Assembly (NCBI RefSeq): GCF_947503465.1
Contig: NZ_CANNDN010000001.1
Coordinates: 1,612,001-1,676,000, forward strand
DNA from: an uncultured Tateyamaria sp.
GTDB taxonomy: Bacteria; Pseudomonadota; Alphaproteobacteria; Rhodobacterales; Rhodobacteraceae
Length of the DNA: 64,000 bases
Direction of reading: 5' to 3'
Made by a program: the position numbers and the translations under genes. Below are positions 29,493-62,833 of this stretch, one piece after another. Every line of letters starts with the position of its first letter. Position 1 is the stretch's first letter. The notes beneath the pieces were generated by a model. The model worked only from the letters and a program-made list of their open reading frames with translations. It had not been told where the DNA came from and did no database searches.

Positions 29493-29738
29493 ATGCTTGT
29501 TCTGAAACCCAATTGCGAATGCTGCGACAAGGATTTGCCACCCACCGCGCTGGATGCGCGCATCTGCACCTATGAATGTACCTTTTGCGTCAGCTGTGTG
29601 GAAACGCGGCTGGGTCATATCTGCCCTAATTGCGGCGGCAATTTCGTACAGCGTCCCATCCGGCCAGAACCGATGTTGCGCAAGGACCCCGCCTCGACCC
29701 GCCGTGTGACGAAACCGCACGCCGTCTGTGCACAGTGA
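29493..29738 (+). CDS. DUF1272 small zinc-binding protein
   Basis: The 81-residue protein has Cys pairs CECCDKD, CTYECTFCVSC and CPNCGG, the arrangement of DUF1272, predicted to bind zinc; the molecular role is unknown. The ATG at 29493 has the aaggag site at the right spacing, whereas GTG at 29490 is too close. It is divergent from the GlxA regulator and precedes a phosphatase-like gene by 16 bases. Confidence 0.9.
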   Translation: MLVLKPNCECCDKDLPPTALDARICTYECTFCVSCVETRLGHICPNCGGNFVQRPIRPEPMLRKDPASTRRVTKPHAVCAQ

Positions 29739-29754
29739 AGACCGGAGCCACAGC

Positions 29755-30225
29755 ATGACTGACCTGCCCCATATCCTGAATTGGCGCCGGATCACCCCGC
29801 GCATCACCACTTCTGGTCAGCCTAGCGCGCGTGAACTGGCCGAGATCCGCGCTCTGGGCGTGACCCACATCATTAATCTGGGCATTCACAACACGGAAGG
29901 CGCGTTGCCGGACGAGGCCGGGACCGTTGCGGACCTCGGGATGACCTATGTCCATATCCCGGTCGACTTCGTGGCACCAACGGATCAGGATTTCGAGGAT
30001 TTCGCAGCCGCGCTTGCGGCGCTGCCGGACACAAAGATCCATGTCCATTGCATTTACAATGCCCGGGTCAGCGCGTTTTTCTATCGCCACGCGCAGGACG
30101 ATGCGCGCGCAGCCGCCTTTGACACCATGGACAGCATCTGGAGGCCCGGGGACGATTGGGCCGATTTCATTGGTGACCCGAAGGCCAAAGGTCAGCCCAA
30201 CCGCTATGCCGGAGACGACTACTGA
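29755..30225 (+). CDS. Protein tyrosine phosphatase-like protein
   Basis: The 156-residue protein resembles dual-specificity phosphatases: GVTHIINLGIHNTEGAL, YVHIPVDFVAPT and a P-loop VHCIYNARVSAF with Cys99 and Arg104. The loop has four residues between Cys and Arg instead of the usual five, a shorter form also found in related proteobacterial proteins. It may therefore bind rather than hydrolyse phosphate. It begins 16 bases after DUF1272 and ends 187 bases before the ABC-transporter operon. Confidence 0.75.
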   Translation: MTDLPHILNWRRITPRITTSGQPSARELAEIRALGVTHIINLGIHNTEGALPDEAGTVADLGMTYVHIPVDFVAPTDQDFEDFAAALAALPDTKIHVHCIYNARVSAFFYRHAQDDARAAAFDTMDSIWRPGDDWADFIGDPKAKGQPNRYAGDDY

Positions 30226-30412
30226 CCCCGTGCTGAACCATCCGCCCCACCAAGCGCGGCTTTTTTTTTCACCGCAATGCCGCATTTTTGGGCGGAAACC
30301 CGCCTGAAGCTGGGCCACAGTGGTGTTGCCCGGCCCTCTTGTCTTTCTTTCGGTTCGCCAAGTCGCATTCTGTTTTTCCATGTGATGCCAAACCACAGGG
30401 GAGACGTCTTTC

Positions 30413-31399
30413 ATGCAAAAACTTGCGCTTACAACGGCCTTGGCCGTATTGCCCTTTGCCGCCATGGCACAGGACCTGACACCGGTCACATTCGGCACCA
30501 ACTGGCTGGCCCAGGCGGAACATGGCGGGTTCTATCAATCCGTTGCCGATGGCACCTATGCCGCGTGCGGGCTGGACGTCACCATCGTGTCGGGCGGTCC
30601 ACAGGTGAACAATCGGGCCCTTCTGCTGGCCGACCGCATCCAGTTCCACATGGGCGGCGACATGTTGCAGGCCTTCAATGCCGTTGCCGAAGAGATTCCG
30701 GTGGTGGCCGTGGCCGCCATCTTCCAGAAACACCCGCAGGTCATCGTGGCGCATCCGGATGTCACCAGCTGGGACGCATTGAAGGACAAGACCCTACTGA
30801 TCGGCGACAATGGCTATTCCAGCTATTACCAGTGGATGATTGCCGAACACGGGTTCACGGCCGAACAGCGCCAGCCCTACACCTTCAACCCTGCGCCGTT
30901 CATCGCCAACACCGACACTGCCATGCAAGGCTACCTGTCATCAGAACCGTACCTGGTTGAGAAGGAGGCCGGGTTCAAACCCAACGTCTTCCTGATCGCC
31001 GACAATGGCTATTCGTCCTATGCCACCACGATCGAGGTGATGCAGGCCACGATCGACGAGACCCCCGAGCAGGTCGAATGCTTTGTCGATGCGTCGCTGA
31101 CCGGCTGGTACAACTACCTTTACGGCGACAGTGCCGCGGCGGACGCCCTGATCCTTGAGGCCAACGCCGACATGACCCAGGACAAGATCGACTTTGCCAA
31201 GAACATGATGCGCGACGAAGGCATCGTGGACAGCGGCAAGACGCTGGAGCTGGGCATAGGCGCGATGTCGGATGAGGTCATCGGTGACTTTTACCAGAAG
31301 ATGGTCGATGCTGGCGTGATCGGCGCCGATCTTGATTGGAAAGCGGCCTATACGCTCGACTTTACCAACAAGAAGGTCGGGATCGACATCAAACCCTGA
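30413..31399 (+). CDS. ABC transporter substrate-binding protein, NMT1/ThiY-like
   Basis: This 328-residue protein has a Sec signal (MQKLALTTALAVLPFAAMAQ) and the NMT1/THI5-like fold with FGTNWLAQAEHGGFYQSVADG and CGLDVTIVSGGP, typical of importers for pyrimidine or thiamine fragments and other small heterocycles. The ligand is not known. The ribosome site aggggaga lies before the ATG. It is the first gene of a nine-gene operon. The 187-base leader holds a poly-T stretch, a possible GGCGG/CCGCC hairpin near 30290 and no recognised riboswitch. Confidence 0.93.
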   Translation: MQKLALTTALAVLPFAAMAQDLTPVTFGTNWLAQAEHGGFYQSVADGTYAACGLDVTIVSGGPQVNNRALLLADRIQFHMGGDMLQAFNAVAEEIPVVAVAAIFQKHPQVIVAHPDVTSWDALKDKTLLIGDNGYSSYYQWMIAEHGFTAEQRQPYTFNPAPFIANTDTAMQGYLSSEPYLVEKEAGFKPNVFLIADNGYSSYATTIEVMQATIDETPEQVECFVDASLTGWYNYLYGDSAAADALILEANADMTQDKIDFAKNMMRDEGIVDSGKTLELGIGAMSDEVIGDFYQKMVDAGVIGADLDWKAAYTLDFTNKKVGIDIKP

Positions 31400-31462
31400 T
31401 CCGCAACACCGTTCGGAAAGAGCGTCCCCGGGTTTGCGGACCCGGGGCAACCGGAGTGTGAG

Positions 31463-32245
31463 ATGGCGCAAATCGCCCCCTTTGCCGCGCGCGATGAGTT
31501 GATGCGTGTGAATGCCGTGGACAAGGTGTTTCCCGGTGACGTGCAGGCGCTGCGTGCCATGTCGCTGACCGTCCGCGAGGGCGATTTCATCTCGCTTTTG
31601 GGGCCGTCGGGCTGTGGCAAGTCCACCGCGTTGCGCCTGATCGCCGGCCTGTCCGAGCCAACGGCGGGCCGTATCGAATGGGCCAGGCCACGGGCGCAAG
31701 GCGATCTGGGTGTGGTGTTTCAGGAACCCACGCTGATGCCCTGGGCCACGGTGGCGCAGAACGTCTTCCTGCCCTTCCGGCTTGAGGGGAAAACCTATGC
31801 CACGGTGAAGGACGATATTCTTGAGGTGTTGAAACTGGTAGGGCTGGAGAAGTTCCAGAACGCCTATCCAAGGGAACTGTCCGGCGGCATGAAGATGCGC
31901 GTGTCCATTGCCCGCGCCATGGTCACGCAACCCAAGCTGATCCTGATGGACGAGCCGTTCGCCGCGCTGGATGAGATCACCCGCTTCAAACTGAACAACG
32001 ACCTTCTGGAGATGCAGGCGCGCATCGGGTGCACGGTGATCTTCGTCACCCACTCGGTCTTTGAAAGTGTGTTCCTGTCGGATCGCGTCGTCGTCATGGC
32101 CGCCCGTCCCGGACGCGTGATCGAGGAGTTGCACGTGGACGAACCCTATCCCCGGGGCGAGGTGTTCCGCACCTCGGCAGAGTACGTTGCGCATTGCCGG
32201 GCCGCGTCGCAGGCGTTGGAGCAGGCGTTGGAGGCCGCCGCATGA
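31463..32245 (+). CDS. NitT/TauT-type ABC transporter ATP-binding protein
   Basis: The 260-residue ATPase has Walker A LLGPSGCGKST, signature LSGGMKMRVSIARA, Walker B LILMDEPFAALD and switch histidine FVTHSVFES. VFQEPTLMPWATVAQNV is typical of the nitrate/sulfonate/taurine subfamily. It energises the uptake of the ligand bound by the upstream protein. It begins 63 bases after that gene and overlaps the permease gene by ATGA. Confidence 0.95.
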   Translation: MAQIAPFAARDELMRVNAVDKVFPGDVQALRAMSLTVREGDFISLLGPSGCGKSTALRLIAGLSEPTAGRIEWARPRAQGDLGVVFQEPTLMPWATVAQNVFLPFRLEGKTYATVKDDILEVLKLVGLEKFQNAYPRELSGGMKMRVSIARAMVTQPKLILMDEPFAALDEITRFKLNNDLLEMQARIGCTVIFVTHSVFESVFLSDRVVVMAARPGRVIEELHVDEPYPRGEVFRTSAEYVAHCRAASQALEQALEAAA

Positions 32246-33102
32246 GCGTGACAGGCCTGGACCAACCGGCCACCGCAACGGTCGACGCGGAAGAGGCACG
32301 CCGTGCCCGTGCCCGCCGCATTGAAAAGACCGCGCGCTGGCTGCTGCCCTTGCTGGTCATGGCGCTGATGATCTGGATCTGGGACCGCATCGTGGTCTGG
32401 AACGAGATCCCGCATTTCATCCTGCCCAGCCCTGCCCGTGTCTGGGGCAGCCTGACAGGGGATTGGGCGATCCTGTGGGACAGCGCGCTGTTGACAGGTC
32501 GCATCACGCTGATGGCGTTGGTCATTGCCGTTGTCGGCGGCGCGGGCCTTGCCATCCTGTTCAATCAGAACCGCATGTTGGAACTGTCGCTGTATCCCTA
32601 CGCCGTGATCCTGCAAGTGACACCCGTGGTCGCGATTGCGCCGCTGATCTTTATCTATGTGGAAAGCAAGACGGTCGGCATGTTGTTGTGCGCCTGGCTT
32701 GTGGCGTTCTTTCCGGTGCTCAGTTCCACGACTTTGGGCCTGAATTCGGTTGATCACAACCTGCGCGACCTGTTCCGCATTTACGGGGCAACCCGGTGGC
32801 AGCGGTTGTGGATGCTGCAATTGCCATCGGCCCTGCCCTATTTCCTGGGCGGGTTGAAGATTGCCGGTGGTCTGTCGCTGATCGGGGCCGTGGTGGCCGA
32901 ATTGGTGGCGGGCACGGGCGGTGTGGGCACGGGCCTTGCCTTTCGCATTCAGGAAGCGGGATATCGGTTGAACATCGCCCGCATGTTTGCCGCGTTGGCC
33001 ATTGTGGCCGCCATGGGCGTGTTCATCTTTGCCGCCCTGTCGTTGCTGTCCCATATGCTGCTGCGCAAGTGGCACGAGAGCGCCATCAAACGGGAGTATT
33101 AA
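32242..33102 (+). CDS. NitT/TauT-type ABC transporter permease
   Basis: The 286-residue membrane protein has six predicted segments; the EAA loop region is FRIYGATRWQRLWMLQLPSALPY, cited by its start FRIYGATRWQRLW near residue 175. IPHFILPSPARVW near the N-terminus is common in the family. It forms the channel of the importer as a homodimer. The last base of its stop is shared with the ATG of the deaminase gene (TAATG). Confidence 0.94.
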   Translation: MSVTGLDQPATATVDAEEARRARARRIEKTARWLLPLLVMALMIWIWDRIVVWNEIPHFILPSPARVWGSLTGDWAILWDSALLTGRITLMALVIAVVGGAGLAILFNQNRMLELSLYPYAVILQVTPVVAIAPLIFIYVESKTVGMLLCAWLVAFFPVLSSTTLGLNSVDHNLRDLFRIYGATRWQRLWMLQLPSALPYFLGGLKIAGGLSLIGAVVAELVAGTGGVGTGLAFRIQEAGYRLNIARMFAALAIVAAMGVFIFAALSLLSHMLLRKWHESAIKREY

Positions 33103-34364
33103 TGGACTTTCGCGCCCTGCCCAGCGGACCCATAACCCTTGCAAATGTCACCGTGCCTGCCTGCCTTGTCGGGCAGGAGGGCGATCTGATCCTTACAGAC
33201 CTGCATGTCGCCGAGGGACGGTTGACAGACATACCGGGCGCCCGCGTCGACATGGCCCGCGCCATGGTCCTGCCCTGTTTCACTGACATGCATGTACATC
33301 TGGACAAGGGGCACATCTGGCCCCGTGCCGCCAACCCCGACGGGTCTTTCCCCGGGGCCCTTACCACGGTGCGCGCCGATCATGCCAACTGGTCCGCGAA
33401 GGATCTGCACGCGCGGATGGAGTTCGGCCTGGCCTGCGCCTATGCCCATGGCACCCGCGCCGTGCGCACGCATCTGGACAGCATTCCGCCGCAGCCACAG
33501 ATCACGTGGCCCGTTTTTGCCGCGTTGCGGGACGAGTGGGCAGGACGCGTCGACGTGCAGGGGGTTTGCCTGATCGGGTGCGACCACTTCTCGGAAGATG
33601 GTGATTTCCGTGTGACCGCCGATCTGGTGGCAGAGCATGGCGGCGTGCTGGGCATGGTCACCTACCCGGTGCCGGACCTGCGCGACCGGCTCGAAGGGTT
33701 TTTTCGGCTTGCCGCTGCGCGTGGTCTGAACGTCGATTTCCACGTGGACGAGACGATGGACGCGTCATCGGAAACCCTGCGTCTGATCGCAGAAGTTGCG
33801 ATGCAAACCGGCTTTGACGGCCGGATCGTCGTAGGCCATTGCTGTTCGCTGTCCACCCAAAATGAGGCGCGCGCCATGGACACGCTGGATCTGGTGGCAC
33901 GCGCAGGCATCCATGTGGTCAGCCTGCCGATGTGCAATCTTTACCTGCAAGACCGCCACGCGCACCGCACTCCACGGGGACGCGGTGTCACGCTGGTGCA
34001 CGAGATGAAGGCACGCGGCATCCCCATTTCCTTTGCGTCTGACAACACGCGCGATCCGTTCTATGCCTATGGCGATCTTGATATGCTCGAAGTCATGCGG
34101 CAGGCGACGCGCATCGCGCATCTGGATCATTCAAGCACCGATTGGGTCACCTCCTTTACCACACAGCCGACCGACACGTGCGGGTTTGACGCACAGGGGT
34201 TGAGCCCCGGCGACCCTGCCGATCTGGTGATCTTCAAGGCCCGTGAATGGACCGAACTTTATGCCCGACCCCAATCTGACCGCATCGTACTGCGGAATGG
34301 CACCGCCATCGACCGCACGTTGCCCGACTATGCAACCCTCGACCACCTGTGGGAGACATCATGA
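33102..34364 (+). CDS. CodA-like cytosine deaminase / amidohydrolase
   Basis: The 420-residue protein is a COG0402-type amidohydrolase. The metal-binding start is TDMHVHLDKGH (His64, His66); further ligands are in FHVDET, VVGHCC and ASDNTRDPF, as in cytosine deaminase. It hydrolyses an exocyclic or ring C-N bond of a small heterocycle. True cytosine activity is uncertain because the family also deaminates isoguanine, creatinine-type and other substrates. It overlaps its neighbours and is embedded in the importer/oxidase operon. Confidence 0.85.
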   Translation: MDFRALPSGPITLANVTVPACLVGQEGDLILTDLHVAEGRLTDIPGARVDMARAMVLPCFTDMHVHLDKGHIWPRAANPDGSFPGALTTVRADHANWSAKDLHARMEFGLACAYAHGTRAVRTHLDSIPPQPQITWPVFAALRDEWAGRVDVQGVCLIGCDHFSEDGDFRVTADLVAEHGGVLGMVTYPVPDLRDRLEGFFRLAAARGLNVDFHVDETMDASSETLRLIAEVAMQTGFDGRIVVGHCCSLSTQNEARAMDTLDLVARAGIHVVSLPMCNLYLQDRHAHRTPRGRGVTLVHEMKARGIPISFASDNTRDPFYAYGDLDMLEVMRQATRIAHLDHSSTDWVTSFTTQPTDTCGFDAQGLSPGDPADLVIFKAREWTELYARPQSDRIVLRNGTAIDRTLPDYATLDHLWETS

Positions 34365-35755
34365 ACCTTGACGCCGCCAAAGCCGCCCTTGCCCATCTGG
34401 ACATTGATGAGAAGGAAACGAGTATCCGCGCCGCCTCGCGCGATTTCTTCTGGTACTCGCCTGTGCTCAAGGATCGGCTCGACCATGTGGTGGCGGATTT
34501 TGTGGTGCGCCCAAGGAACGAGGCCGAGGTGATCGAAATCCTCAGGGTCTGTTACCAACACGACGTACCTGTCACCACGCGCGGCGCGGGCACGGGCAAC
34601 TACGGACAGGCCATGCCGCTTGAGGGTGGGTGCGTGATGCACCTGCGCTGGATGGATCAGGTCAAGGAGGTGCATCCGGGCCGTGTGATCGTCGAGCCGG
34701 GCTGTCTGCTTAAGGATCTTGATTCGGTGTGCAAGGAACAGTCAGGGCAGGAAATTCGCATGTTTTCCAGCACATGGGCGACCGCGACCATCGGTGGCTT
34801 TATCGCCGGTGGATCGGGCGGCGTGGGCTCGTGCACATGGGGATCCTTGCGCGATCTGGGCAACATCATCCGCCTGCGCGTGGTCACGATGGAGGAAGAG
34901 CCGCGCGTCCTTGAGTTCCGCGGCGAGGAACTGGCCCGCGTCAGTCACGCCTATGGCACCAACGGGATCATCACCGAAATCGAAATGCCGCTGGCCCCCG
35001 CTTATGACTGGGTCGAGATGTTCGTGAAGACCACCGACTTCATGGCTGCCGCGCGTTTTGCCGAGGATCTGGCGAATGAGGACGGCATCCTGATCAAGCT
35101 GGCCACCGTGTTCGAAGCGCCGATCGCCAAGGACTATTTCCAGCGCGTCGCGCGCCATGTGGAGGCGACCGACAACCTGATCGGCCTGATGGTCGCGCCC
35201 CATTCCATGGACGGGTTCGAGACGTTTCTGGGCCGCAGGCCGGAGATGGACCTGATTTACCGCAGCGATGATCACACCTGGGACCGTGCGCCCGGCATGG
35301 TCTTTGAGTATGGCTGGAACCACACGACGCTACGCGCGCTCAAGGTCGATCCGTCGATCACCTATTTGCAAGTGCGCTATGGCTACCCCCAACATCTCGC
35401 CCTGATCGAGAAGATGCGCGATGCCTTGTCACCAGAGGTGTTGCAACACCTTGAAGTGTTGAAGGAGGGCGGCAAGGTCATGTTTGCGGGGTTGTCCCTT
35501 GTCAAGTTCACCACCGAAGAGCGGCTGGACGAGATCGTGAAGATGCACGAGGACGCAGGCGCGATGATCTTCAACCCGCACCGCTACACGTTGGAGGAAG
35601 GCGGGCGGCAGACCGTGGATGACCGGCAATTGCGATTCAAGCAGGAGGCGGACCCCAAGGGCTTGCTGAACCCCGGCAAGATGATCGCATGGGATGATCC
35701 CGATTTCGATTTCGCCAAGATGTATGCCTATCCCAAGATGCAGATCGCCGAATGA
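34361..35755 (+). CDS. FAD-linked (PCMH-type) oxidase/dehydrogenase
   Basis: This 464-residue protein is an FAD-binding oxidoreductase of the vanillyl-alcohol-oxidase/GlcD fold. PVTTRGAGTGNYGQAMPLEGG, cited by TTRGAGTGNYGQ, is the FAD pyrophosphate loop; FSSTWATATIGGFIAGGSGG matches the second FAD block, and it ends with DPKGLLNPGKM. No His attachment site for covalent FAD is clear. The enzyme would oxidise a hydroxy or amine group of the imported compound. ATG 34361 overlaps the deaminase stop. Confidence 0.88.
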   Translation: MNLDAAKAALAHLDIDEKETSIRAASRDFFWYSPVLKDRLDHVVADFVVRPRNEAEVIEILRVCYQHDVPVTTRGAGTGNYGQAMPLEGGCVMHLRWMDQVKEVHPGRVIVEPGCLLKDLDSVCKEQSGQEIRMFSSTWATATIGGFIAGGSGGVGSCTWGSLRDLGNIIRLRVVTMEEEPRVLEFRGEELARVSHAYGTNGIITEIEMPLAPAYDWVEMFVKTTDFMAAARFAEDLANEDGILIKLATVFEAPIAKDYFQRVARHVEATDNLIGLMVAPHSMDGFETFLGRRPEMDLIYRSDDHTWDRAPGMVFEYGWNHTTLRALKVDPSITYLQVRYGYPQHLALIEKMRDALSPEVLQHLEVLKEGGKVMFAGLSLVKFTTEERLDEIVKMHEDAGAMIFNPHRYTLEEGGRQTVDDRQLRFKQEADPKGLLNPGKMIAWDDPDFDFAKMYAYPKMQIAE

Positions 35756-36363
35756 CACGCGCGCCGACCGTCCCGGCAGAGCCGCAGCACGCGCTTGTCC
35801 TTGCCGCGCACCCAGTGCCGGACAGCTTCAACGCGGCCCTGCATGCGCAGGTGGTTCAGTCATTGCGTGGCCGCGGTTGGACAGTGGATGATTGCGATCT
35901 TTATGCCGAAGGGTTTGATCCGGTGATGTCCGAAGCCGACAGGCGCGGGTATCACGACGTGCCGGGCAATACCGGCCCGGTTCAGAACTATGTCGACCGT
36001 CTGCGCGCCGCCGACGCGTTGATCATGGTCTTTCCCGTTTGGAACTTCGGCTATCCTGCGATCCTGAAAGGGTTTCTGGACCGGGTGTTTTTGCCAGGCG
36101 TGTCGTTCCGGTTGGACGATGGCAAGGTCGTTCCGAACCTGACACGTATCCGGCGTCTTGCGGCGGTGACCACCTATGGCGGCACGCGTCTGCGGGCGAT
36201 GCTGTGCGGTGATCCGCCTCGTAAATGCGTGACGCGCGCCGTCTGGCATGTGTGCCGCCCGCGCACCACCAAATACCTTGCCCTATACGACATGAACCGG
36301 GCCAGCGATGCAAAACGCCGTCAATTCCTGGCCCATGTCGGAGATCAACTAAGGACCTTCTGA
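35752..36363 (+). CDS. Flavodoxin-fold NAD(P)H-dependent oxidoreductase (first copy)
   Basis: The 203-residue protein belongs to the NQO1/MdaB-like flavodoxin-fold family (PF02525): VLAAHPVPDSFNAAL at the FMN phosphate loop, ADALIMVFPVWNFGYPAILKGFLDRVF for the central strand and helix (cited by MVFPVWNFGYPAILKG) and VTTYGGT near the end. It reduces quinones or free flavin with NAD(P)H. A close homologue follows directly, so the two may form a heterodimer or serve separate steps. It overlaps the FAD oxidase gene by ATGA. Confidence 0.9.
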   Translation: MTRAPTVPAEPQHALVLAAHPVPDSFNAALHAQVVQSLRGRGWTVDDCDLYAEGFDPVMSEADRRGYHDVPGNTGPVQNYVDRLRAADALIMVFPVWNFGYPAILKGFLDRVFLPGVSFRLDDGKVVPNLTRIRRLAAVTTYGGTRLRAMLCGDPPRKCVTRAVWHVCRPRTTKYLALYDMNRASDAKRRQFLAHVGDQLRTF

Positions 36364-36959
36364 TGCGTGCGCTTATTGTTTTTTGCCACCCGAAAGAGGA
36401 CAGTTTCAACGCCGCCGTGCTGAGCACGGTCACAACCCAGCTGGACAAGGCAGGCGTCGAATATCGCCTGCGGGACCTTTACCGGTCGAATTTCATGCCC
36501 GTGCTGACGGCGCATGAATTGGACTGTTATCTTGACGAGACCTGCAATGCCGATCCTGTCGCGCAGGACGTGGCAGACGTGCAATGGGCGGATGCGCTGA
36601 TCTTTGTCTATCCGACATGGTGGTACGGGTTGCCCGCGATGCTCAAGGGGTGGCTGGACCGAGTGTTGTTGCCCGGCGTGGCCTTTATCATGCCGCAGGG
36701 TGACGGCGACAACATTCGCCCGGGCCTGACCCACATCAAACGACTGGGGGTGTTCACCACCTGCGGCGCGTCCTGGTGGTTGACCACGCTGATCGGGTCG
36801 CCGGGCCGCAAGATGCTGACGCGCGGCGTGCGGGCCATTTGCGCCAAACGCTGCCGCACTGTCTTTGCAGCGCATTACCTCATGGACAGCTCGACAGATG
36901 CGTCCCGTGCACGCTATCTCAGACAGGTGGCGGCACGGATGGAGAGGCTGACGGCATGA
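36363..36959 (+). CDS. Flavodoxin-fold NAD(P)H-dependent oxidoreductase (second copy)
   Basis: This 198-residue protein is a paralogue of the gene before it, with IVFCHPKEDSFNAAVL, FVYPTWWYGLPAMLKGWLDRV (cited by YPTWWYGLPAML) and FTTCGASWWL. The Tyr/Trp-rich active-site loop differs from its neighbour's, suggesting different substrates or a heterodimer. The ATG shares its first base with the previous stop (TGATG), consistent with strict co-translation. Confidence 0.9.
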   Translation: MRALIVFCHPKEDSFNAAVLSTVTTQLDKAGVEYRLRDLYRSNFMPVLTAHELDCYLDETCNADPVAQDVADVQWADALIFVYPTWWYGLPAMLKGWLDRVLLPGVAFIMPQGDGDNIRPGLTHIKRLGVFTTCGASWWLTTLIGSPGRKMLTRGVRAICAKRCRTVFAAHYLMDSSTDASRARYLRQVAARMERLTA

Positions 36960-37876
36960 TACCCGTTCTGGACTGGACAGAGGTGCGCAACGACCGCCCC
37001 GCCTTTACGGCCAAGCTGGGCCAGGCGGTACGCGAAACCGGTTTCTTCCTGCTGTCCAATGCCGATGTCCCTGCTGATTTGCGGTCAGACGTTCTGCGGC
37101 TGGCTGATCAGTTCTTTGACCAGCCCCGCGCGGAAAAGGCCAAACTGTCGATCCTCGACACCCCGCATTTTCGCGGATGGGGCAAACCGGGCGACGAGTC
37201 GCTGGATGAAACGCGGCCTGAGGTGGATACGAAGGAAACCTTTAACATCGGGTACGATCTGGCCCCTGACGATCCGCGCGTCCTTGCCAACGAACCCTTT
37301 CGTGGCGTGAACCGCTGGCCCGAGATCGCGGGCTTCAGTGCCACGATGCTGGCCTATTACGATGCGTGCCAAGCGCAGGCCTCTGCCCTGCTGAGCATAA
37401 TGGCAGATGACCTGGGCCTGCATGTCGATCACTTTTCCGACCTGTTTACCGAACCGCTGTCCGCCATGCGCCTTTTGCATTACCCACCCGCGACAGGGGC
37501 GGAGAACGAGATCGGGGCCGGGGCGCATACGGATTACGGTGCGATCACATTGCTGATGACCGACGGTGAACCTGGCCTTCAGGTGCGCCCGCGCGGAGGC
37601 GACTGGATTGATGTGCCGCATGTGCCCGGCGCCTATGTCGTCAATATCGGAGACTGCCTGATGCGGTGGACAAACGACATCTATGTGTCGACCCCGCACC
37701 GTGTTCTGCCCCCCAAACGCCAACGCCGATCCGTCGCGTTTTTCTGCGAAGCCAATCCCGATGCGCTGGTCGCCGCCCTGCCCGGCACGGGCCCGGCCAA
37801 GTACCCGCCGATCCGCGCCGCCGACTACCTGGCCTCGCGGCTCGCGGCCACCTATGCCCCGAAGGATACCGAATGA
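36956..37876 (+). CDS. Isopenicillin-N-synthase-family Fe(II) oxygenase
   Basis: The 306-residue protein is a non-heme iron oxygenase of the IPNS/2-oxoglutarate family. N-terminal IPVLDWTEV and GFFLLSNADVP are typical; iron ligands are His191, Asp193 (GAHTDYGAITLL) and His248 (STPHRVLPP), and Arg258 before SVAFF binds the co-substrate. It would hydroxylate or demethylate the compound handled by this operon. It is joined by ATGA overlaps to the reductase upstream and the creatininase downstream. Confidence 0.92.
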   Translation: MIPVLDWTEVRNDRPAFTAKLGQAVRETGFFLLSNADVPADLRSDVLRLADQFFDQPRAEKAKLSILDTPHFRGWGKPGDESLDETRPEVDTKETFNIGYDLAPDDPRVLANEPFRGVNRWPEIAGFSATMLAYYDACQAQASALLSIMADDLGLHVDHFSDLFTEPLSAMRLLHYPPATGAENEIGAGAHTDYGAITLLMTDGEPGLQVRPRGGDWIDVPHVPGAYVVNIGDCLMRWTNDIYVSTPHRVLPPKRQRRSVAFFCEANPDALVAALPGTGPAKYPPIRAADYLASRLAATYAPKDTE

Positions 37877-38685
37877 GCGCACGCGATTGGGCCGACCTGA
37901 GGATGCCCGAGTTCGAGAATTTGAACCCTGACCGGACAATTGTGATCCTGCCCACGGCCGCCATCGAACAGCACGGGCCGCATCTGCCGGTTGGCACGGA
38001 CACGCTGATTGCCGAGGGGATGCTGGACGCGCTGCGCGCCGCATGCCCCGCTGATCTGGATCTGCTGATCCTGCCCGTGCAGGCCGTCGGCAAGTCCAAC
38101 GAACATCTGTGGGCCGCCGGGACCTGCACCTTGACCGCCGAAACCGCCCTGCGGGCCTGGACCGAAATTGGCATTTCCGTCGCCCGCGCAGGTCTGAAAA
38201 AGCTGATGATCATCAACTCGCATGGCGGCAACCTGGATCTGATTTCCATTCTCAGCCGCGAGTTGCGGGTGCAGGCCGGGATGCTTGCCGTCAAGGCGCA
38301 GTGGGGATCGTTTGGGGCGCCGGAGGGCCTGTTCAGCGATCAGGAAAACCGGTTTGGCATCCATGGCGGCGACAGCGAAACCTCCCTCATGCTCGCCTTC
38401 CGCCCTGACACCGTGGACATGGATGCTGCGCGTAATTTTCGATCCAGCGCGGAAACATCTGCCATTTCGCCGATCGGGCCGATTTCCTATGGCTGGATCG
38501 CGTCCGATCTGTCCGGCAGCGGTGTCGTGGGCGAAGCGCATCTTGCAACGGCCGAAAAAGGTCATGCGCTGGCCGCGCATCAGGCGGCGGGATGTGTGGC
38601 GCTGGCCCGCCAAATGGTAGAGACGCCTGTGCCTGCAGCACCGGCCGTGCGGCCCGTGATACATCCACCCTCGCATTCGTCTTGA
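37873..38685 (+). CDS. Creatininase-family amidohydrolase
   Basis: The 270-residue protein has the creatininase signature VILPTAAIEQHGPHLPVGTD (Glu32, His34, Asp43) and SHGGN near residue 117, which together bind two metal ions. Relatives hydrolyse cyclic amides such as creatinine or deformylate a pyrimidine intermediate (ArfB type). It is the last gene of the operon; 168 bases without an obvious gene separate it from the convergent subtilase. Confidence 0.9.
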   Translation: MSARDWADLRMPEFENLNPDRTIVILPTAAIEQHGPHLPVGTDTLIAEGMLDALRAACPADLDLLILPVQAVGKSNEHLWAAGTCTLTAETALRAWTEIGISVARAGLKKLMIINSHGGNLDLISILSRELRVQAGMLAVKAQWGSFGAPEGLFSDQENRFGIHGGDSETSLMLAFRPDTVDMDAARNFRSSAETSAISPIGPISYGWIASDLSGSGVVGEAHLATAEKGHALAAHQAAGCVALARQMVETPVPAAPAVRPVIHPPSHSS

Positions 38686-38853
38686 ACGTCTGATGGCGAC
38701 CATCCGGACCAAGCAACCGGGTCTGGCGCAAAGCCGAAGGATGCACCCGCGGCACATGGCACGCGTTCAAGCCCGAGCGGTGACCCAGCCAGCCAGGCAC
38801 ACCGGCTGCCGGCAGCGTGCCCGGACCAGAACCGTCACGCGGCAAGGACAGGA

Positions 38854-41133
38854 CTAAACCTTGCGACGGACGTCGCGCATGATGTTGTCCTCAAGGACAG
38901 GGTGAGGTTTGATCAGCCCGTTATCGTTTTGGACACGTTGTTCCCGGACACGACGATTTCCTGCGCGTTCAGGGGTGTCATTATCAGGCCTGAGGACCGG
39001 GCGCGCCTTGCGATCCGGATCTTCGACATCGGCAATGGAGTCGTCCTTCAGAAATTTGATCGCATTGAACGATGCGTATTTCGCAGGATTGAGACGCGAC
39101 AGTTCGCCTGCGAGGCACCGCGCGACCTGCGGCGCGGCGACGCTTGTCCCACCCATCGCCACCTGTCCGCCGTTGCGGGTGGCTGCCCCCAGAATACCCT
39201 GCAAAACCCCCGATGTCTCAGATGGGGCGAGAAAATGCGGCGCGCTGAGTGTGTCGTCGTTGCCCGCCGCACTGTAGATCGCCGCCCTGTCGCTGTCCCA
39301 TAGCGCACCGCCGACGGACAGAAGTGGGGTGTCCGGACCGACCGTGTTGGTTGCAATGCCAGACACGGTTCCATCGCGTTTGACGATGCTTTCGGGTCGG
39401 CCCGCATCCCTGACCACCACATCGCCGAACCTGTCAAAGCGATTGTTCTCATAGGCGGTATCGTCGAAATAGGCCTGCCTTCCACGCGTTCCGAAACCGC
39501 CGACTGCTTCATCCCGCTGGATCCAGGCCCGGACAGGCCCGTTGCCGTGCGTATCGCCTTTGCACGCTACCTTCCAGATGCCGTGTGGGCATGCGGGTTG
39601 GTTCGCACCCAGACACGTGCTGGGTCCAAGCGCAAGCAGGACCCGCCAGAAAGGCGTGCAATCTTCTGTGGCGGGATGCTGGTGTGCGTGCCCCGCCCCA
39701 GCCGGTTTCTCGTTGGGTCGGTCGATGGAAATTCGCGCAATGACTGTACCCTCTTCAAACCCTGCGCCGCCATCTTGTTTCGGTTCGGCCAATACATAGT
39801 CATTGGCCAGCGAAACACTGCTGTCATATGGACCTGAAATGTCGAACGAAAATGTCTTCGACACAGCGCCCGGCGGTGTCACCGTCACTTCGATAAGCTT
39901 TGTTTTGGCGCTGAACCAGATTTCTACAAAGCTGGCACTACGATCATCCGGTTGAACGCGCATGTCAAAATCAAGAACCGGCGCACGATCCGCCTGTCCC
40001 GCGGGTCCTGTCGCGTGTGTTTTCGACAAATGCCCATTGCCCGCAGGTAGGGCAATCTCGGCTGGGGCCGAAATACCAGGATACGGTGTGTCTGCGATTT
40101 TGGCCGTTTCCTTTCGGTACTCCTCGGCCATCGCGCGCAATGTACGCTCGACGATGTGTTTCCCATTTTTGGGGCCGCCGCCAAAACCATAGCTGAAGTT
40201 CACCACGACCGGTATCGGGACTTTGTTGGCATCACTCATCTCAAGCGCACGATCGAAGATGTACCGCGCTGCCGCGATGATCGACGTCATCAGGGATGCA
40301 CCCGACGTGTCCTGCGACGCGAAGGTTGGCAGTTGAACCGCGATTATTCTGTGATTGATGGCTTTTTCGTCATCAGGATCGTAGCCCGCTGCCAAATCAG
40401 CCACATGGGTGCCATGAGAGCCGCGCAGCTTGAGCGACGTGGGCAAATATGGCCGATCCGTTGTGGCGATCAGGTCCAGCTGTCGCATCAGCGCATCATC
40501 ATCATCCGGATGCAGCTGAATGGCCTGGGACGTTACCTCGGAGGTGAATTCACGGCCGAAGGGCACGCTGTTCTGTCCTTCCCACTGTGCATCGTGGATC
40601 CAGGCAAAGTCGACGCGGCTTTTTCCATCCGCGTCGCGAAATCTGCGGTGGCCGATGTTGATGGAATCGTCAATCAACCCCGAGATGACGAGTTTATCGG
40701 CGCTTGCGGCTTCGGGCAAAGGGGGGACACCACTGCCGAGTACCCTGACACTCCCCGGTGCGATGTCGGGGCCAGCGCTGGCTTCCCGTATCGGGAGACG
40801 ACCAAAGAACACATCCTCGATCGGAACGGATTCGGAATCAGACGATGAGAGAAAAGGCGGATCGGTGAAGTCAAACCGTTCAGAGAAAAAGTCGACCCTT
40901 TCGTCACGCTCAATAACGATCAGGGCAAAGTCAAAGTCAGTTTCGGCCACCTTGGGGATTTCCTCGGTATATGCGAACTGTGCGCCGTGTCGTGCGATCC
41001 ACTGGGAATAGGCGTCGACAACCCGGACCCTGCCTTTTTTGGCGCCGTCGCCAGGCGTGTCACGCGGAAGGGACACCTTTTTTTCGGACAGATAGGTCAC
41101 CTTGTCCGGAAACCACGCGCGGGCCTGTGCCAT
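38854..41133 (-). CDS. Subtilisin-like (S8) serine peptidase without signal peptide
   Basis: The 759-residue protein has the S8 triad: Asp at 155 or 156 in SGLIDDSINIGH, His240 in SHGTHVADLAAG and Ser664 in GGTSVAAPQVAR; the region between His and Ser is much longer than in classical subtilases and includes a beta-rich insert (about 380-560). No signal peptide or membrane segment is present, so it is cytosolic or exported by a non-Sec route. The ATG at 41133 has a strong aaggggg site, preferred to 41160. The gene directly follows the PAP2-like gene, and its function is unknown. Confidence 0.85.
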   Translation of the reverse strand: MAQARAWFPDKVTYLSEKKVSLPRDTPGDGAKKGRVRVVDAYSQWIARHGAQFAYTEEIPKVAETDFDFALIVIERDERVDFFSERFDFTDPPFLSSSDSESVPIEDVFFGRLPIREASAGPDIAPGSVRVLGSGVPPLPEAASADKLVISGLIDDSINIGHRRFRDADGKSRVDFAWIHDAQWEGQNSVPFGREFTSEVTSQAIQLHPDDDDALMRQLDLIATTDRPYLPTSLKLRGSHGTHVADLAAGYDPDDEKAINHRIIAVQLPTFASQDTSGASLMTSIIAAARYIFDRALEMSDANKVPIPVVVNFSYGFGGGPKNGKHIVERTLRAMAEEYRKETAKIADTPYPGISAPAEIALPAGNGHLSKTHATGPAGQADRAPVLDFDMRVQPDDRSASFVEIWFSAKTKLIEVTVTPPGAVSKTFSFDISGPYDSSVSLANDYVLAEPKQDGGAGFEEGTVIARISIDRPNEKPAGAGHAHQHPATEDCTPFWRVLLALGPSTCLGANQPACPHGIWKVACKGDTHGNGPVRAWIQRDEAVGGFGTRGRQAYFDDTAYENNRFDRFGDVVVRDAGRPESIVKRDGTVSGIATNTVGPDTPLLSVGGALWDSDRAAIYSAAGNDDTLSAPHFLAPSETSGVLQGILGAATRNGGQVAMGGTSVAAPQVARCLAGELSRLNPAKYASFNAIKFLKDDSIADVEDPDRKARPVLRPDNDTPERAGNRRVREQRVQNDNGLIKPHPVLEDNIMRDVRRKV

Positions 41134-41144
41134 GACCGCCCCCC

Positions 41145-42371
41145 TTACCGTTTCTTCCATTCAAGAACGGATTTGTCCCACAAGAACTTCAATGGCGCGC
41201 TCACCAGCATCGGCGAAGCCGGTATCGGGCTGTCCATATTGGTGACAATGCCGTCGTGTTCAGGTGCACGTACCAACGGATCAGCATGTTCACGCAGGTA
41301 GTTTTCCGTTTTGAAATCAACAGTCACGGACGGGCCGTCTTCGGCTTCCGGTGACGTCACCACCTTTGTGCCGTCAAACTGGACGGGATACAGACATCCC
41401 GCTCCGGTTGCGCGGGCCACCAGATATTGACCGATCACCAGCCCAAGCATCGCGCCAGCCATCGAGTCAGCTGGAAAGTGTACGCCGGCCACTGTTCTGT
41501 TGATCGCGATGCGGGCGGCTTGTCGCATCAGTTGATCGACATACAGGTCGTCTGGGGCGCCCTGGCCCCGTTCGATCTCGATCAACCGGGACAGGACAAC
41601 GGCCATGGCGAAGGCTTCGGTCGCATGTCCGCTGGGCAATGTGCCATGACCGGGCGTGGGTATCACGGGCTGCACCTGAGGCGAAAAAGCATCTGGGCGA
41701 TGGCAAGCCAAGGCTTGCTTTGTTGCGAGCACGATGTGGGTCGCAAAGACCTGTGTGATGCCCAGAAGCTCGTGTGTGAATTGTTTGCGGCCCGGGTGAA
41801 GATCTGCAATCGCAGTCATGTAAGGCACTGGATATCCCGCCTGAGACAGGATTTCCGGCAACCGATCCGCTCTGAGGTCGGCGTAGTCTCTGACCAGTTC
41901 GAGTTGCGCAACGAATTGATCGTGCCCAGGACGTGTGAAGGCCGCCAATCGCTGGGCCTTGATCTTGAACGTGTCTGCCATCGCAGTTGTATCGGATGAG
42001 CGGCTGAAGTGGTAAAACGACACCTCGGGCGTGCAGCCTTCGGTGCCGAACGCCACACCGCTGTTCGTCAACAGATCCTGGAGCACGACCATCGTGCGCA
42101 CCATTTGCGACCAGTCTTCCAGATTTGCCGGTTCATTCAGGCTCCGCTCGGTCGGGTTCAGCGTGGCACCGGCCCACTGACCGACAATGCCATCCCGTGC
42201 GAACAACAGGCCGGCGGCGGTGGTCGCGTCATAGTTGCCCGCCGCAGCGGCGTTGCCTGACATTGCCGTCATCGCAGTCATGGCGGTCGAACCACTCATT
42301 GCCGTCATCGCTGTCATGGCGGTCATGGCCGTCATTGCTGTCATGGCGGTCCCGGTAGCTTGGCTTGACAT
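41145..42371 (-). CDS. PAP2 / vanadium-haloperoxidase-like protein with Thr-Ala-Met repeats
   Basis: The 408-residue protein has the three-part acid phosphatase/haloperoxidase signature: K-x6-RP in KQALACHRP, PSGH with His249 in TLPSGHATEAF, and R-x5-H-x3-D with His298 and Asp302 in NRTVAGVHFPAD. It could be a phosphatase or a vanadate-dependent haloperoxidase. The N-terminus has tandem TAM repeats (residues 8-25 and 29-37) and no signal peptide. It ends 11 bases before the subtilase start. Confidence 0.8.
   Translation of the reverse strand: MSSQATGTAMTAMTAMTAMTAMTAMSGSTAMTAMTAMSGNAAAAGNYDATTAAGLLFARDGIVGQWAGATLNPTERSLNEPANLEDWSQMVRTMVVLQDLLTNSGVAFGTEGCTPEVSFYHFSRSSDTTAMADTFKIKAQRLAAFTRPGHDQFVAQLELVRDYADLRADRLPEILSQAGYPVPYMTAIADLHPGRKQFTHELLGITQVFATHIVLATKQALACHRPDAFSPQVQPVIPTPGHGTLPSGHATEAFAMAVVLSRLIEIERGQGAPDDLYVDQLMRQAARIAINRTVAGVHFPADSMAGAMLGLVIGQYLVARATGAGCLYPVQFDGTKVVTSPEAEDGPSVTVDFKTENYLREHADPLVRAPEHDGIVTNMDSPIPASPMLVSAPLKFLWDKSVLEWKKR
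42261..42350 (-). repeat. Tandem nine-base repeat encoding Thr-Ala-Met
   Basis: About nine units of ACNGCNATG, in blocks of six and three split by a Ser-Gly-Ser spacer, encode the N-terminal Thr-Ala-Met tract of the PAP2-like protein. Third-codon positions vary between units, so the tract is not a fresh expansion. Each unit supplies an in-frame ATG. Confidence 0.9.
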
Positions 42372-56544: not shown

Positions 56545-56675
56545 ACAGGCCGGACAACTTGCCATTGCCTGTCTGACTGCCCTACGCTATCGGCCGACAG
56601 CCCGCCCTTCGGTCTACGCCGCATCGACCGAGGGGCCGCACAGGGGCGTTGGTACCGCGGCGGGCACAAGAAAAC

Positions 56676-58061
56676 ATGCGCACGACCTTTCTTCTGAATG
56701 GAAGCGAGATCACGGCTGAGACTTCTCCGACAACGACATTGCTGGACTGGCTGCGGGACCGCCCCGGCCTGACGGGCACCAAGGAAGGCTGCAACGAAGG
56801 CGATTGTGGCGCCTGTTCGGTGATGGTGACGGACGAGATCGGCGCGCGGGCACTGAATGCCTGCATCCTGTTCGTGCCGCAGATTGCGGGCAAGGCGGTA
56901 CGCACAGTTGAAGGGATCGCCGCCCCTGACGGCACATTGCACCCCGTCCAGCAAGCCATGATCGATCATCACGGAAGCCAGTGCGGCTTTTGCACGCCCG
57001 GGTTTGTCACCACGATGGCAACGGCGCATCTGAATGGTGAGACGGACCATGACACGGCGTTGGCGGGCAACCTCTGCCGGTGTACCGGGTATGCGCCCAT
57101 CGTTCGAGCCGCCGAAGCGGCCCAACATGCGCCGGTCCCGGATCATGTGAACGACGCCCCCCTTCTTCTGGCCCGAAATACTTCGGGGGAGGCTCCGCAG
57201 GAGCCGGGGGCAGAGCCCCCAACGACGCCCGATGCCCTCGCGAAATGGATGCATGAAAACCCTGGCGGCACGCTCGTGGCCGGCGCGACGGATGTGGGCC
57301 TGTGGGTGACCAAGGACCTTCGCGATCTGGGTCCGGTGGCGTTTCTCAACCGGATTCCAGAATTGGCAGGCGTCACGGTCACAGACGAACACATCCGTAT
57401 CGGCGCGGCCACGACCTTGACAGATCTGCATGGGATCATGGGCGATCACCACCCGGCCTTTGCCGAATTGATCCGTCGCTACGGATCCGTCCAGGTGCGC
57501 AACGCCGCGACAATCGGCGGCAATGTCGCAAACGGCTCGCCCATCGGCGACGGCTCACCTGCACTGATTGCGCTGGGGGCAACAGTCCATCTGCGCTCCG
57601 TGGACGGTGTCCGGGCTCGACCGATCGAGGAATTCTTCATCGACTACGGCAAGCAAGACCGCGCACCAAACGAGTTTGTCGAGGCGATCACCATTCCACG
57701 GCAGGACGATCACCTGCGGTGTTACAAACTGTCCAAACGGTTCGATCAGGACATTTCGGCCGTATGTGGCTGTTTCTGGATCGACGTACGCGACGGCGAA
57801 GTGGCCAACATACGTCTGGCCTTCGGCGGTATGGCGGGCACGCCCAAACGGGCCGTACATGCCGAGGCGGCGCTACGCGGCATGCCATGGACAGACGCGA
57901 CAGTGGCCTCGGCGATGCAAGCCATGACCCGGGATTTCACGCCGCTCAGCGACATGCGCGCCTCTGCCGGTTACCGCATGGAGGCGGCACAGAACATGCT
58001 ACTGCGGGCGTGGCTGGAAGATCAGGGTCAGGCCGCCAACGTGTTGGAGGTCACCCCATGA
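56676..58061 (+). CDS. xdhA: Xanthine dehydrogenase small subunit
   Basis: The 461-residue subunit oxidises xanthine-derived electrons through two [2Fe-2S] clusters and FAD. Cluster I uses C39, C44, C47 and C63 ([13 protein letters not shown]); cluster II uses C103, C106, C134 and C136 ([15 protein letters not shown]). The FAD domain (about 190-370) has [14 protein letters not shown] and [14 protein letters not shown]. Residues 162-181, between the two domains, are encoded by a dispersed palindromic repeat. The gene overlaps xdhB by ATGA. Confidence 0.96.
57162..57220 (+). repeat. Dispersed palindromic repeat, copy C, in frame inside xdhA
   Basis: The core CTTCTTCTGGCCCGAAATAC is followed by TTCGGGGG and two hairpins, GGCTCC-GCA-GGAGCC and GGGGGC-AGA-GCCCCC. 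It matches the intergenic copies near 10164 and 26044. It stays open in frame and encodes the inter-domain linker [20 protein letters not shown]. Confidence 0.85.
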
Positions 58062-60358
58062 GCGTCGCCAGGCCGCTGCCCCACGATGCCGCGCACCTGC
58101 ATGTGACGGGCGCCGCCCGCTACGTGGATGACATGCCGACGCCTGTAGGCGCATTGCACCTGGCCTTTGGCACCAGCAGTGTTGCGAAGGGTCGGATCAC
58201 GCAGATGGACCTGTCTGCCGTGCGCGACGCACCGGACGTCATCGCGGTCCTGACCGCGGATGACCTGCCCTTTGCGAACGATGTTTCGCCGTCCGCCCAT
58301 GACGAGCCGCTTTTGTCCGATGGCGCGGTGCATTACGTGGGCCAGCCGCTGTTTCTGGTCGTGGCGCGGTCGCATCTGGCAGCGCGACACGCGGCACGGC
58401 TTGGCAGGATTGATGTTGCGGAAGAAACGCCGGTCCTGACGATCGACGCGGCTTTGGCGGCGGGCAGTCGGTTCGAGGATGGTCCACGCATCTATGCCCG
58501 CGGCGGTGCCGCCCTGGGCCTGGACGGGGCACAGCACCGCCTGACCGGGTCGGTCCATATTGGCGGACAGGAACACTTTTACCTCGAAGGGCAGGCCGCG
58601 CTGGTTCTGCCGGGCGAAGACGGCGACATGCATGTCATCTCGTCCACCCAGCATCCGACCGAAATCCAGCACAAGGTGGCCGATGCCATTGGCAAACCCA
58701 TGCACGCGGTTCGCGTCGAAACGCGGCGCATGGGCGGCGGGTTCGGAGGCAAGGAAAGCCAGGGCAATGCGCTGGCCGTGGCCTGCGCGGTGGCCGCGCG
58801 GCTGACCGGCGTGCCCTGCAAGATGCGCTATGATCGCGATGACGACATGGTCATTACCGGCAAGCGGCATGATTTCCGCATCGACTATGACGTGGGGTTT
58901 GACGCGTCGGGCAAAATCACCGCGCTGGACGTCCGCCAATATGCCCGCTGCGGTTGGGCGATGGACCTGTCGCTGCCCGTCGCCGACCGGGCCATGCTGC
59001 ACGCCGACAACGCCTATTGGCTGCCCAATGTGCGGATCGAAAGCCACCGGCTGCGCACCAACACCCAATCGGCCACCGCCTTTCGGGGGTTTGGCGGACC
59101 GCAAGGCATGCTTGGGATGGAACGGATCGTCGACCATGTCGCACACCATCTGCGCCTTGATCCGCTTGAGGTGCGGAGTGCCAATTTTTATGCCTCCGGC
59201 GGTCGTATTTCGGGTCGGAAGAAGCAAACAACGCCCTATGGGCAAGAGGTCGACGACTTCATCGCGGACGCGATCGTGGCACAAGTGCGCAAGACCTCGG
59301 ACTATGATGCGCGGCGCGCGGCTGTTGCCGCATGGAATGCCGCCAACCCGGTGCTGAAAAAGGGCATCGCGCTGACGCCGGTCAAGTTCGGGATCAGTTT
59401 CACCCTCACGCATCTGAACCAGGCCGGGGCGCTTGTTCATGTCTATGCCGACGGGTCAATCCACCTGAACCACGGCGGGACCGAGATGGGTCAGGGCTTG
59501 TTTCAGAAAGTCGCGCAAGTCGCGGCAAGCCGATTTGGCGTGCCGCTCGACGCGGTCAAGATCACCGCAACGGACACGGCCAAAGTACCCAACACGTCGG
59601 CCACGGCCGCATCATCCGGCAGCGATCTGAACGGCATGGCCGTCAAGGCAGCGTGTGACACCATCCGCACACGGATGGCAGAACACCTGTCGCAACTGCA
59701 CCAATGCCGCCCGGATGACGTCGTCTTTGCCGACGGCCGGGTCCGTGCCGGATCCGGGGACTACAGTTTTACCGACGTGGCGACGCTGGCCTACAATGCG
59801 CGGATCAGCCTGTCGGCCACCGGGTTCTACAAGACGCCCGATATCGAATGGGACCGTATCAAGGGTCAGGGCCGCCCGTTCTTCTACTTTGCCTATGGCG
59901 CGGCGGTCACCGAGGTGGTCATTGATACGTTGACCGGAGAAAACCGCATTCTGCGGGCCGACATTCTGCATGATGCCGGTGCCTCCTTGAATCCGGCGCT
60001 GGATATCGGACAGATCGAAGGCGGCTATGTCCAGGGTGCGGGATGGCTGACGACCGAGGAACTGGTCTGGGACGACGCCGGACGGCTGCGGACACATGCC
60101 CCGTCGACCTACAAGATACCGGCATGTGGCGACCGGCCCGATATTTTCAACGTCGCCTTGTGGGATGGCGAGAACCGGGCCGATACGATCTACAAATCGA
60201 AAGCGGTCGGAGAGCCGCCCCTGATGCTGGGCATTTCGGCCTTTCTGGCGCTCAACGACGCAGCAGCAAGCTGTGGACCACACTATCCGGACCTGCACGC
60301 CCCGGCCACGGCCGAAGCCGTCTTGAGGGCGGTGCACACTGCACGTGGCGATGTTTGA
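58058..60358 (+). CDS. xdhB: Xanthine dehydrogenase molybdenum-binding subunit
   Basis: The 766-residue subunit binds the molybdopterin cofactor and xanthine. Motifs include [26 protein letters not shown] (substrate Arg), [17 protein letters not shown] and [17 protein letters not shown], followed by the C-terminal [10 protein letters not shown] with the catalytic Glu. It acts with XdhA in purine breakdown. Residues near 378-389 ([12 protein letters not shown]) lie in a repeat-derived segment with unusual composition for this family. It overlaps xdhC by a few bases. Confidence 0.96.
59192..59226 (-). repeat. Dispersed repeat, copy E, in frame inside xdhB
   Basis: On the plus strand the core GTCGTATTTCGGGTCGGAAG (59202-59221) matches copy D at 62802-62821 with one mismatch and is the reverse complement of the left arm of the other copies. 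It encodes [10 protein letters not shown] within xdhB without breaking the frame. Confidence 0.75.
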
Positions 60359-62785: not shown

Positions 62786-62790
62786 TATGG

Positions 62791-62824
62791 GCCCTCCGGG
62801 GGTCGTATTTTGGGTCGGAAGAAA
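62791..62824 (-). repeat. Dispersed repeat, copy D, before the permease gene
   Basis: The plus-strand core GTCGTATTTTGGGTCGGAAG is the reverse complement of the left arm of the repeat family and nearly identical to copy E inside xdhB. It supplies the ggaag that looks like the ribosome site of the permease gene. Confidence 0.8.
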
Positions 62825-62833
62825 CATGCAGGT

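Follow-up and report, generated by a model that had tools for sequence, protein, structure and literature searches.

What compound is taken up and broken down by the products of a tightly packed set of nine genes in an uncultured Tateyamaria species? The question is raised by a stretch of 64,000 nucleotides (the window; contig NZ_CANNDN010000001.1, positions 1,612,001 to 1,676,000), in which nine consecutive genes lie head to tail on the plus strand between positions 30413 and 38685. They encode a substrate-binding protein, the ATPase and permease of an ATP-binding cassette (ABC) transporter, a deaminase, a flavin adenine dinucleotide (FAD) enzyme, two nicotinamide adenine dinucleotide (phosphate) (NAD(P)H) reductases, an oxygenase, and a creatininase-family hydrolase. 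A preliminary description made from the sequence alone had recognized this operon, which is present as claimed, and the Pfam families match its calls for all nine genes. It proposed the uptake and oxidation of an unknown N-heterocycle, a pyrimidine- or imidazole-like compound being the simplest guess. Uptake and oxidation of an N-heterocycle are supported. A free pyrimidine or imidazole is less likely, as the title of PDB entry 6v42 points instead to a pterin, in which a pyrimidine is fused to a pyrazine. To call the substrate unknown was also too pessimistic, since 6v42, a relative of the FAD enzyme, was deposited as a flavin oxygenase of folate catabolism.

The operon probably imports a pterin and breaks its ring oxidatively, a reading to which we assign a probability of about 0.6. 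It is based on the kinship between the FAD enzyme and 6v42, on changed recognition positions in the deaminase, and on a binding protein whose nearest structural neighbors bind pyrimidines or thiamine. Gene order, overlaps, conservation, protein families, intact catalytic residues, and the relation to 6v42 are direct observations, from which we infer the substrate, the order of the reactions, and the products. Free pterin, pterin-6-carboxylate, and biopterin are candidate substrates, as are similar breakdown products of folate or pteridines.

The gene of the FAD-binding VAO-fold enzyme (34361-35755; Pfam FAD_binding_4) overlaps the deaminase gene by 4 bases. The only very close solved relative of its product is the protein of PDB entries 6v42 and 6v43, the former entitled “Crystal structure of the flavin oxygenase with cofactor bound involved in folate catabolism”. 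The match extends over residues 1-452 with a phmmer E-value of 6.6e-166. In a Foldseek search with the predicted model of the FAD enzyme, 6v42 ranks first at 54% identity and a template modeling (TM) score of 0.90, while the next match is 16% identical. The model has a predicted local distance difference test (pLDDT) score of 79.8 and is weak at residues 406-417 and 440-464; the sequence match is independent of it. The window enzyme is thus homologous to 6v42/6v43 over nearly its whole length and falls in the same clade, although about 45% of the residues differ. In a midpoint-rooted tree of 88 enzymes, restricted to FAD proteins of more than 400 residues, 6v42 nests within the clade of operon-borne FAD enzymes, nearest to that of locus L074 and then to those of L072 and L073. 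Support is weak for the pairing of 6v42 with L074 (0.63), and deeper nodes reach 1.0, 0.95, and 0.96. Transporter, deaminase, and reductase genes are present at all three loci, with the deaminase gene of L074 on the opposite strand; no creatininase gene was found at any of the three. The best matches of 6v42 itself, among plasmids, 385 alphaproteobacterial genomes, and the 80 loci described next, are about 66-68% identical, and 19 of the 385 genomes (that of the window counted) match 6v42 at E ≤ 1e-60.

Conservation as a block, the check that the preliminary description had proposed, was borne out. With the FAD enzyme as query, a scan of a genome collection, limited by design to close relatives, confirmed 86 places, of which the best 80 were kept as loci. 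Locus counts use the 65 at which the FAD gene has flanks of 5.8 kb or more on the left and 5.5 kb or more on the right, the 15 with shorter flanks being excluded; by our own classing, 53 of the 65 are Rhodobacteraceae-like and 12 are others. Genes for the binding protein, ATPase, permease, and deaminase are each present at all 65 loci together with the FAD gene and at least one flavodoxin-fold reductase gene, and at least two reductase genes are present at 51. A creatininase gene occurs at 58 loci, and a gene for a Fe(II)/2-oxoglutarate oxygenase at 41, all of them Rhodobacteraceae-like (41/53, against 0/12 of the others). All nine genes stand together at 38/65 loci. A tenth frequent partner, which the preliminary description did not mention, is RidA, an imine/enamine hydrolase encoded at 46/65 loci, in every case upstream and on the opposite strand. 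The arrangement exceeds chance, since the block is found again across Rhodobacteraceae and Hyphomicrobiales, with some rearrangement: on annotated Rhizobium and Agrobacterium plasmids the RidA gene is downstream and convergent; in these two genera the creatininase gene lies upstream of the binding-protein gene on the same strand, behind a LysR gene; and in the Devosia group it is upstream of the binding-protein gene and divergent.

Among 199 genomes sampled from Rhodobacteraceae (one per genus, completeness filter 90, that of the window counted), 63 have a match to the FAD enzyme at E ≤ 1e-80. In 46 of these the identity is at least 68%, the match in one of them (G148) being divided between two contigs. 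The coupled importer and enzymes offer a short list of defined proteins for testing, with a close FAD relative in 46/199 genomes. FAD genes of the same family also occur in tandem, three at G325:C15:200857-204904 and two at G427:C289:17227-19904, which suggests a division of labor between paralogues.

The deaminase gene (33102-34364), which overlaps the permease gene by 1 base, encodes a CodA-like amidohydrolase of 420 residues (Pfam Amidohydro_3). The protein belongs to the group NF005759, named “cytosine deaminase” by NCBI, scoring 609.5 bits where the cut-off is 403, and it matches solved structures of the CodA family at E-values of only about 1e-26 to 1e-28. Like CodA (PDB 1k6w) and 4r7w, it keeps the metal and catalytic positions of the family, here H64, H66, H214, E217, H246, and D314; the first two are invariant in 76 aligned loci and the other four in 77, of the 80. 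The positions that we take to recognize the substrate in CodA, Q156, D314, and W319, are all altered, to G159, N315, and F320 in the window enzyme. N315 and F320 are present in 77/77 aligned loci, and G159 in 61/76, the rest having A, S, T, P, or N. Because these recognition positions are replaced, the enzyme is probably not a cytosine deaminase, and a literal function of that kind is unlikely. The changes fit a substrate that carries a fused group along its C5-C6 edge; a pterin would be of this kind, and a purine would fit equally.

The first gene of the operon (30413-31399) encodes an NMT1/THI5-like periplasmic binding protein of 328 residues (Pfam NMT1, 66.6 bits). Its AlphaFold model, built from 24 sequences, has a pLDDT of 92.2, and the best fold matches are the formylaminopyrimidine-binding protein 3ix1 and the thiamine-bound 4nmy, with TM scores of 0.71-0.73. 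These are followed by Thi5 enzymes, some with pyridoxal phosphate, and by 3qsl. Ranks 1-23 are filled by formylaminopyrimidine-, thiamine-, or Thi5-type chains and two chains of the unassigned Bordetella protein 3qsl; taurine and sulfonate binders begin at rank 24, and PqqT, which binds pyrroloquinoline quinone, stands at rank 34. Sequence matches to ThiY-type proteins are weak (E of 0.0024 for 4nmy and 0.0092 for 3ix1). The modeled fold favors a flat N-heterocycle as the ligand, without naming which one.

These fold neighbors would also suit the catabolism of a free pyrimidine or thiamine fragment, whereby a hydroxymethylpyrimidine-like, cytosine-like, or hydantoin/creatinine-type compound is imported and the deaminase and creatininase-family enzyme act on a single ring. 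Homology of the deaminase to CodA, the presence of a creatininase family member, and the kinship of the oxygenase with thymine dioxygenase (E of 1.1e-42) agree with such a substrate. It is nevertheless unlikely given that G, N, and F stand in place of the CodA recognition residues and that the closest solved FAD relative was deposited for folate catabolism.

A purine-type substrate, such as xanthine, urate, isoguanine, or an 8-oxopurine, would be handled by the same chemistry, as its pyrimidine is fused to an imidazole. CodA-like enzymes can deaminate isoguanine. Genes of the PaoABC/xanthine-dehydrogenase type adjoin the block or lie near it in Rhizobium TA1, R. johnstonii 3841, and A. tumefaciens CFBP7129, although not in R. 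tumorigenes; this neighborhood also speaks for a pterin, as such enzymes can oxidize pterins and aromatic aldehydes. A xanthine riboswitch (RF03054, NMT1 RNA; 63.4 bits) is found at L090:1345-1398 on a Klebsiella plasmid, where it precedes a separate NMT1-type binding-protein gene that neighbors a related cluster. However, that riboswitch belongs to another transcription unit. It was the only one detected when seven relatives of the window locus were scanned, with none in the six other loci and none near the window operon. The xdhABC genes of the same genome lie in a separate locus at 56.6-61.3 kb, and the title of 6v42 says folate. A purine is judged slightly less likely than a single-ring pyrimidine.

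For a pterin, the remaining enzymes of the operon would supply the later steps. The two flavodoxin-fold NAD(P)H reductases are encoded at 35752-36363 (4-base overlap with the FAD gene; Pfam Flavodoxin_2, 100.4 bits) and 36363-36959 (1-base overlap with the first reductase gene; 118.1 bits). The oxygenase, which is isopenicillin N synthase (IPNS)-like, is encoded at 36956-37876 with a 4-base overlap with the second reductase gene (Pfam DIOX_N and 2OG-FeII_Oxy). Its residues H191, D193, H248, R257, and S259 are invariant in 49 aligned loci and make up the HxD...H triad and RxS motif of Fe(II)/2-oxoglutarate oxygenases. By sequence, its closest solved relatives are 9ovh, whose molecule is named as a 2-oxoglutarate-dependent ethylene/succinate-forming enzyme, and the thymine dioxygenase already mentioned. 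The last gene (37873-38685), which overlaps the oxygenase gene by 4 bases, encodes a metal amidohydrolase of the creatininase family (Pfam Creatininase, 231.9 bits). E32, H34, D43, H117, and E169, which we take to be the metal ligands of the family, are invariant in 68 aligned loci, and the gene is the single match of its kind in its genome. It scores below the cut-offs for true creatininase (TIGR04448, 82.0 bits against an equivalog cut-off of 235), for MftE (102.1 against 172), and for ArfB (24.5 against 180), and these three functions are rejected.

RidA is encoded elsewhere in this genome, which has five RidA-family genes. One of them is 65% identical to the operon-type RidA of a relative; the rest reach about 35% at most or do not match it. 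This operon-type gene, at C4:103445 on another contig, stands beside a second deaminase-FAD pair, forming a paralogous RidA/CodA-like deaminase/FAD locus (G000:C4:103445-107170; about 6937-10716 in L118). There the deaminase and FAD genes overlap by 4 bases and the FAD enzyme is 37% identical to that of the window. No transporter or creatininase genes were recognized in the 19 kb compared by similarity. Since the closest RidA adjoins this second pair, the arrangement suggests that the two loci may share one RidA.

The pathway could then run as follows. The NMT1-type ABC transporter would import the pterin, and the CodA-like metal amidohydrolase would strip its 2-amino group to give a lumazine. 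The FAD enzyme would oxygenate or oxidize the pyrazine part of the lumazine, with electrons from one or both of the flavodoxin-fold reductases or from its own substrate. RidA may hydrolyze the resulting imine or enamine, and an amide in the ring-opened product may then be cleaved by the creatininase-family enzyme. Where the Fe(II)/2-oxoglutarate oxygenase is present, as in many Rhodobacteraceae, it might trim or hydroxylate a side chain. The cell would thereby obtain nitrogen, and perhaps carbon, from pteridines that algae and cyanobacteria release. More tentatively, and with somewhat less than an even chance in our estimate, the genes may amount to a complete aerobic pathway for pterin mineralization that is widespread in marine Rhodobacteraceae and has a lineage-specific Fe(II)/2-oxoglutarate step for substituted pterins. 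In that case, pteridines and oxidized folate from phytoplankton would become a recognized marine nitrogen source. If the pterin reading is true, substrates could be proposed for unassigned members of the NMT1 binding, creatininase-like, RidA, and IPNS-like protein families, and the automatic name “cytosine deaminase” (NF005759) would be questionable for the window deaminase.

Related clusters with a second clade of FAD enzymes, about 35-42% identical to that of the window, widen the range of conceivable substrates. They were compared in Klebsiella, Pantoea, Roseateles, Alloyangia, Pseudosulfitobacter, and a Comamonadaceae plasmid, where the FAD enzymes are about 37-41.5% identical to the window's. 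Like the window block, these clusters encode an NMT1-type binding protein, ATPase, permease, amidohydrolase, FAD enzyme, and creatininase, together with RidA. Five of the amidohydrolases were compared with the window deaminase and proved related to it, and that of Alloyangia was assigned by annotation only. The oxidoreductases differ, being of the PDR/VanB type in Klebsiella and Pantoea and a single NAD(P)H-dependent one in Alloyangia and the Comamonadaceae plasmid, with none annotated beside the cluster in Roseateles and Pseudosulfitobacter. No 2-oxoglutarate oxygenase is annotated across the six regions. The occurrence of this second clade in other clusters is compatible with another natural or man-made N-heterocycle, such as lumichrome or flavin fragments, pyrrolopyrimidines, or an algal pteridine glycoside, folate then being a side activity of the 6v42 enzyme. 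The extra oxygenase and second reductase of Rhodobacteraceae could likewise mean a substrate more decorated than plain pterin. Direct evidence for any one such compound is absent, and this is the least probable of the alternatives to a pterin. As a separate observation, CodA-like amidohydrolases of unassigned role at L134:7941-9269 and L135:8941-10245 (pADP-1 and an Agrobacterium leguminum plasmid) adjoin a BMP-type transporter near atrazine (atz) genes. They are 44% identical to the enzyme of the Pantoea cluster, and no FAD oxidoreductase is annotated in the stretch.

The preliminary description knew of no pathway with this gene set, and the open-access literature, judged by titles and the beginnings of abstracts, likewise yielded no published description of the set or of a full pathway. 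No open-access paper naming 6V42 or 6V43 was found. A role for the FAD enzyme is already claimed by the PDB entry; in Rhodobacteraceae the gene set gains a second reductase and the oxygenase. A 2013 paper on pterin deaminase by Fan and colleagues reportedly used genome context to propose a route of pterin degradation not described before. The environmental degradation mechanism of folic acid “has not been fully elucidated”, according to the abstract of a study of the folate-degrading Variovorax sp. F1 (PMC9513972). Carboxypeptidase G and pterin deaminase are described there, and the terms creatininase, RidA, oxygenase, and gene cluster have 0 occurrences each. The pterin deaminase is of similar length (399 residues, against 420 in the window), and “endoribonuclease” genes lie downstream of the pterin deaminase genes, much as RidA lies near the block at 46/65 loci. 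As the Pfam family of RidA carries the name Endoribonuclease L-PSP, this appears to be the same neighbor.

Several observations weigh against a pterin as the substrate. The link to folate is a single PDB title in the wording of its depositors, and 54-56% identity to 6v42 is insufficient to fix a substrate. The name cytosine deaminase is also borne by 4r7w, in which S replaces CodA D314 while Q and W are kept, so that this position alone proves little. The comparison with the experimentally known pterin deaminase of Variovorax F1 covers protein length and gene neighborhood; Arad3529 of A. radiobacter, cited in PMC9513972, is a second known enzyme of this kind. RidA was not found at 19/65 loci, creatininase at 7/65, and the oxygenase at 24/65, and the later steps of the pathway are therefore not universal. 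At none of the five Tateyamaria loci was RidA found, and in the window the upstream neighbor is a phosphatase-like gene. A. tumefaciens CFBP6625 (L094) has a related second-clade cluster with an IPNS-type oxygenase and no annotated deaminase. In 16 annotated regions, two of which (L134 and L135) hold only a related amidohydrolase, no gene bears a name that refers to folate or pterin metabolism. Lastly, an Rfam scan over 29600-39300 revealed no folate riboswitch near the operon and no match of any kind inside the upstream intergenic region (30226-30412).

The layout of the locus is that of a coupled unit with one interruption. The operon had been described as gapless with overlaps from the ATPase gene on; all seven junctions from that gene onward are indeed 1- or 4-base overlaps, but the eighth, between the binding-protein and ATPase genes, is a gap of 63 bp (31400-31462). 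The ATPase gene (31463-32245; Pfam ABC_tran, 115.8 bits) and the permease gene (32242-33102; Pfam BPD_transp_1, 82.5 bits) overlap by 4 bases. On the 5′ side, the phosphatase-like gene is on the plus strand and a gene for an AraC/GlxA-type regulator is on the opposite strand; on the 3′ side, beyond 38685, a subtilase gene runs in the opposite direction. In a comparison without the window itself, Tateyamaria loci L010-L012 have upstream gene families in common that L008 and L009 lack, and the conserved unit therefore seems to begin at the binding protein. No sigma-70-like promoter was found in 30226-30412, and terminator-like sites, 9 against 6.4 expected, are uninformative. The only hit of the Rfam scan, a SAM-IV match within the upstream gene but on the opposite strand, scores 24.9 bits where the cut-off is 38 (E of 0.54) and is attributed to chance.

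Farther along the window, positions 56649-63922 hold xdhA, xdhB, and xdhC, each of which exceeds its equivalog cut-off. Next come genes for an ABC ATPase and a BPD_transp_2 permease whose best scores are to “putative B6” transporter models, below cut-off. This is probably a locus for purine oxidation and nucleobase-type uptake. At a distance of 18 kb, with genes for ribonucleotide reductase, hisG/hisZ/hisS, and dnaE in between, xdhABC is ruled out as a member of the operon system. Also in the window, at 42261-42351, is a 9/18/27-bp tandem repeat inside the start of a PAP2-family gene (41148-42371, minus strand), where it encodes an N-terminal repeated Thr-Ala-Met run.

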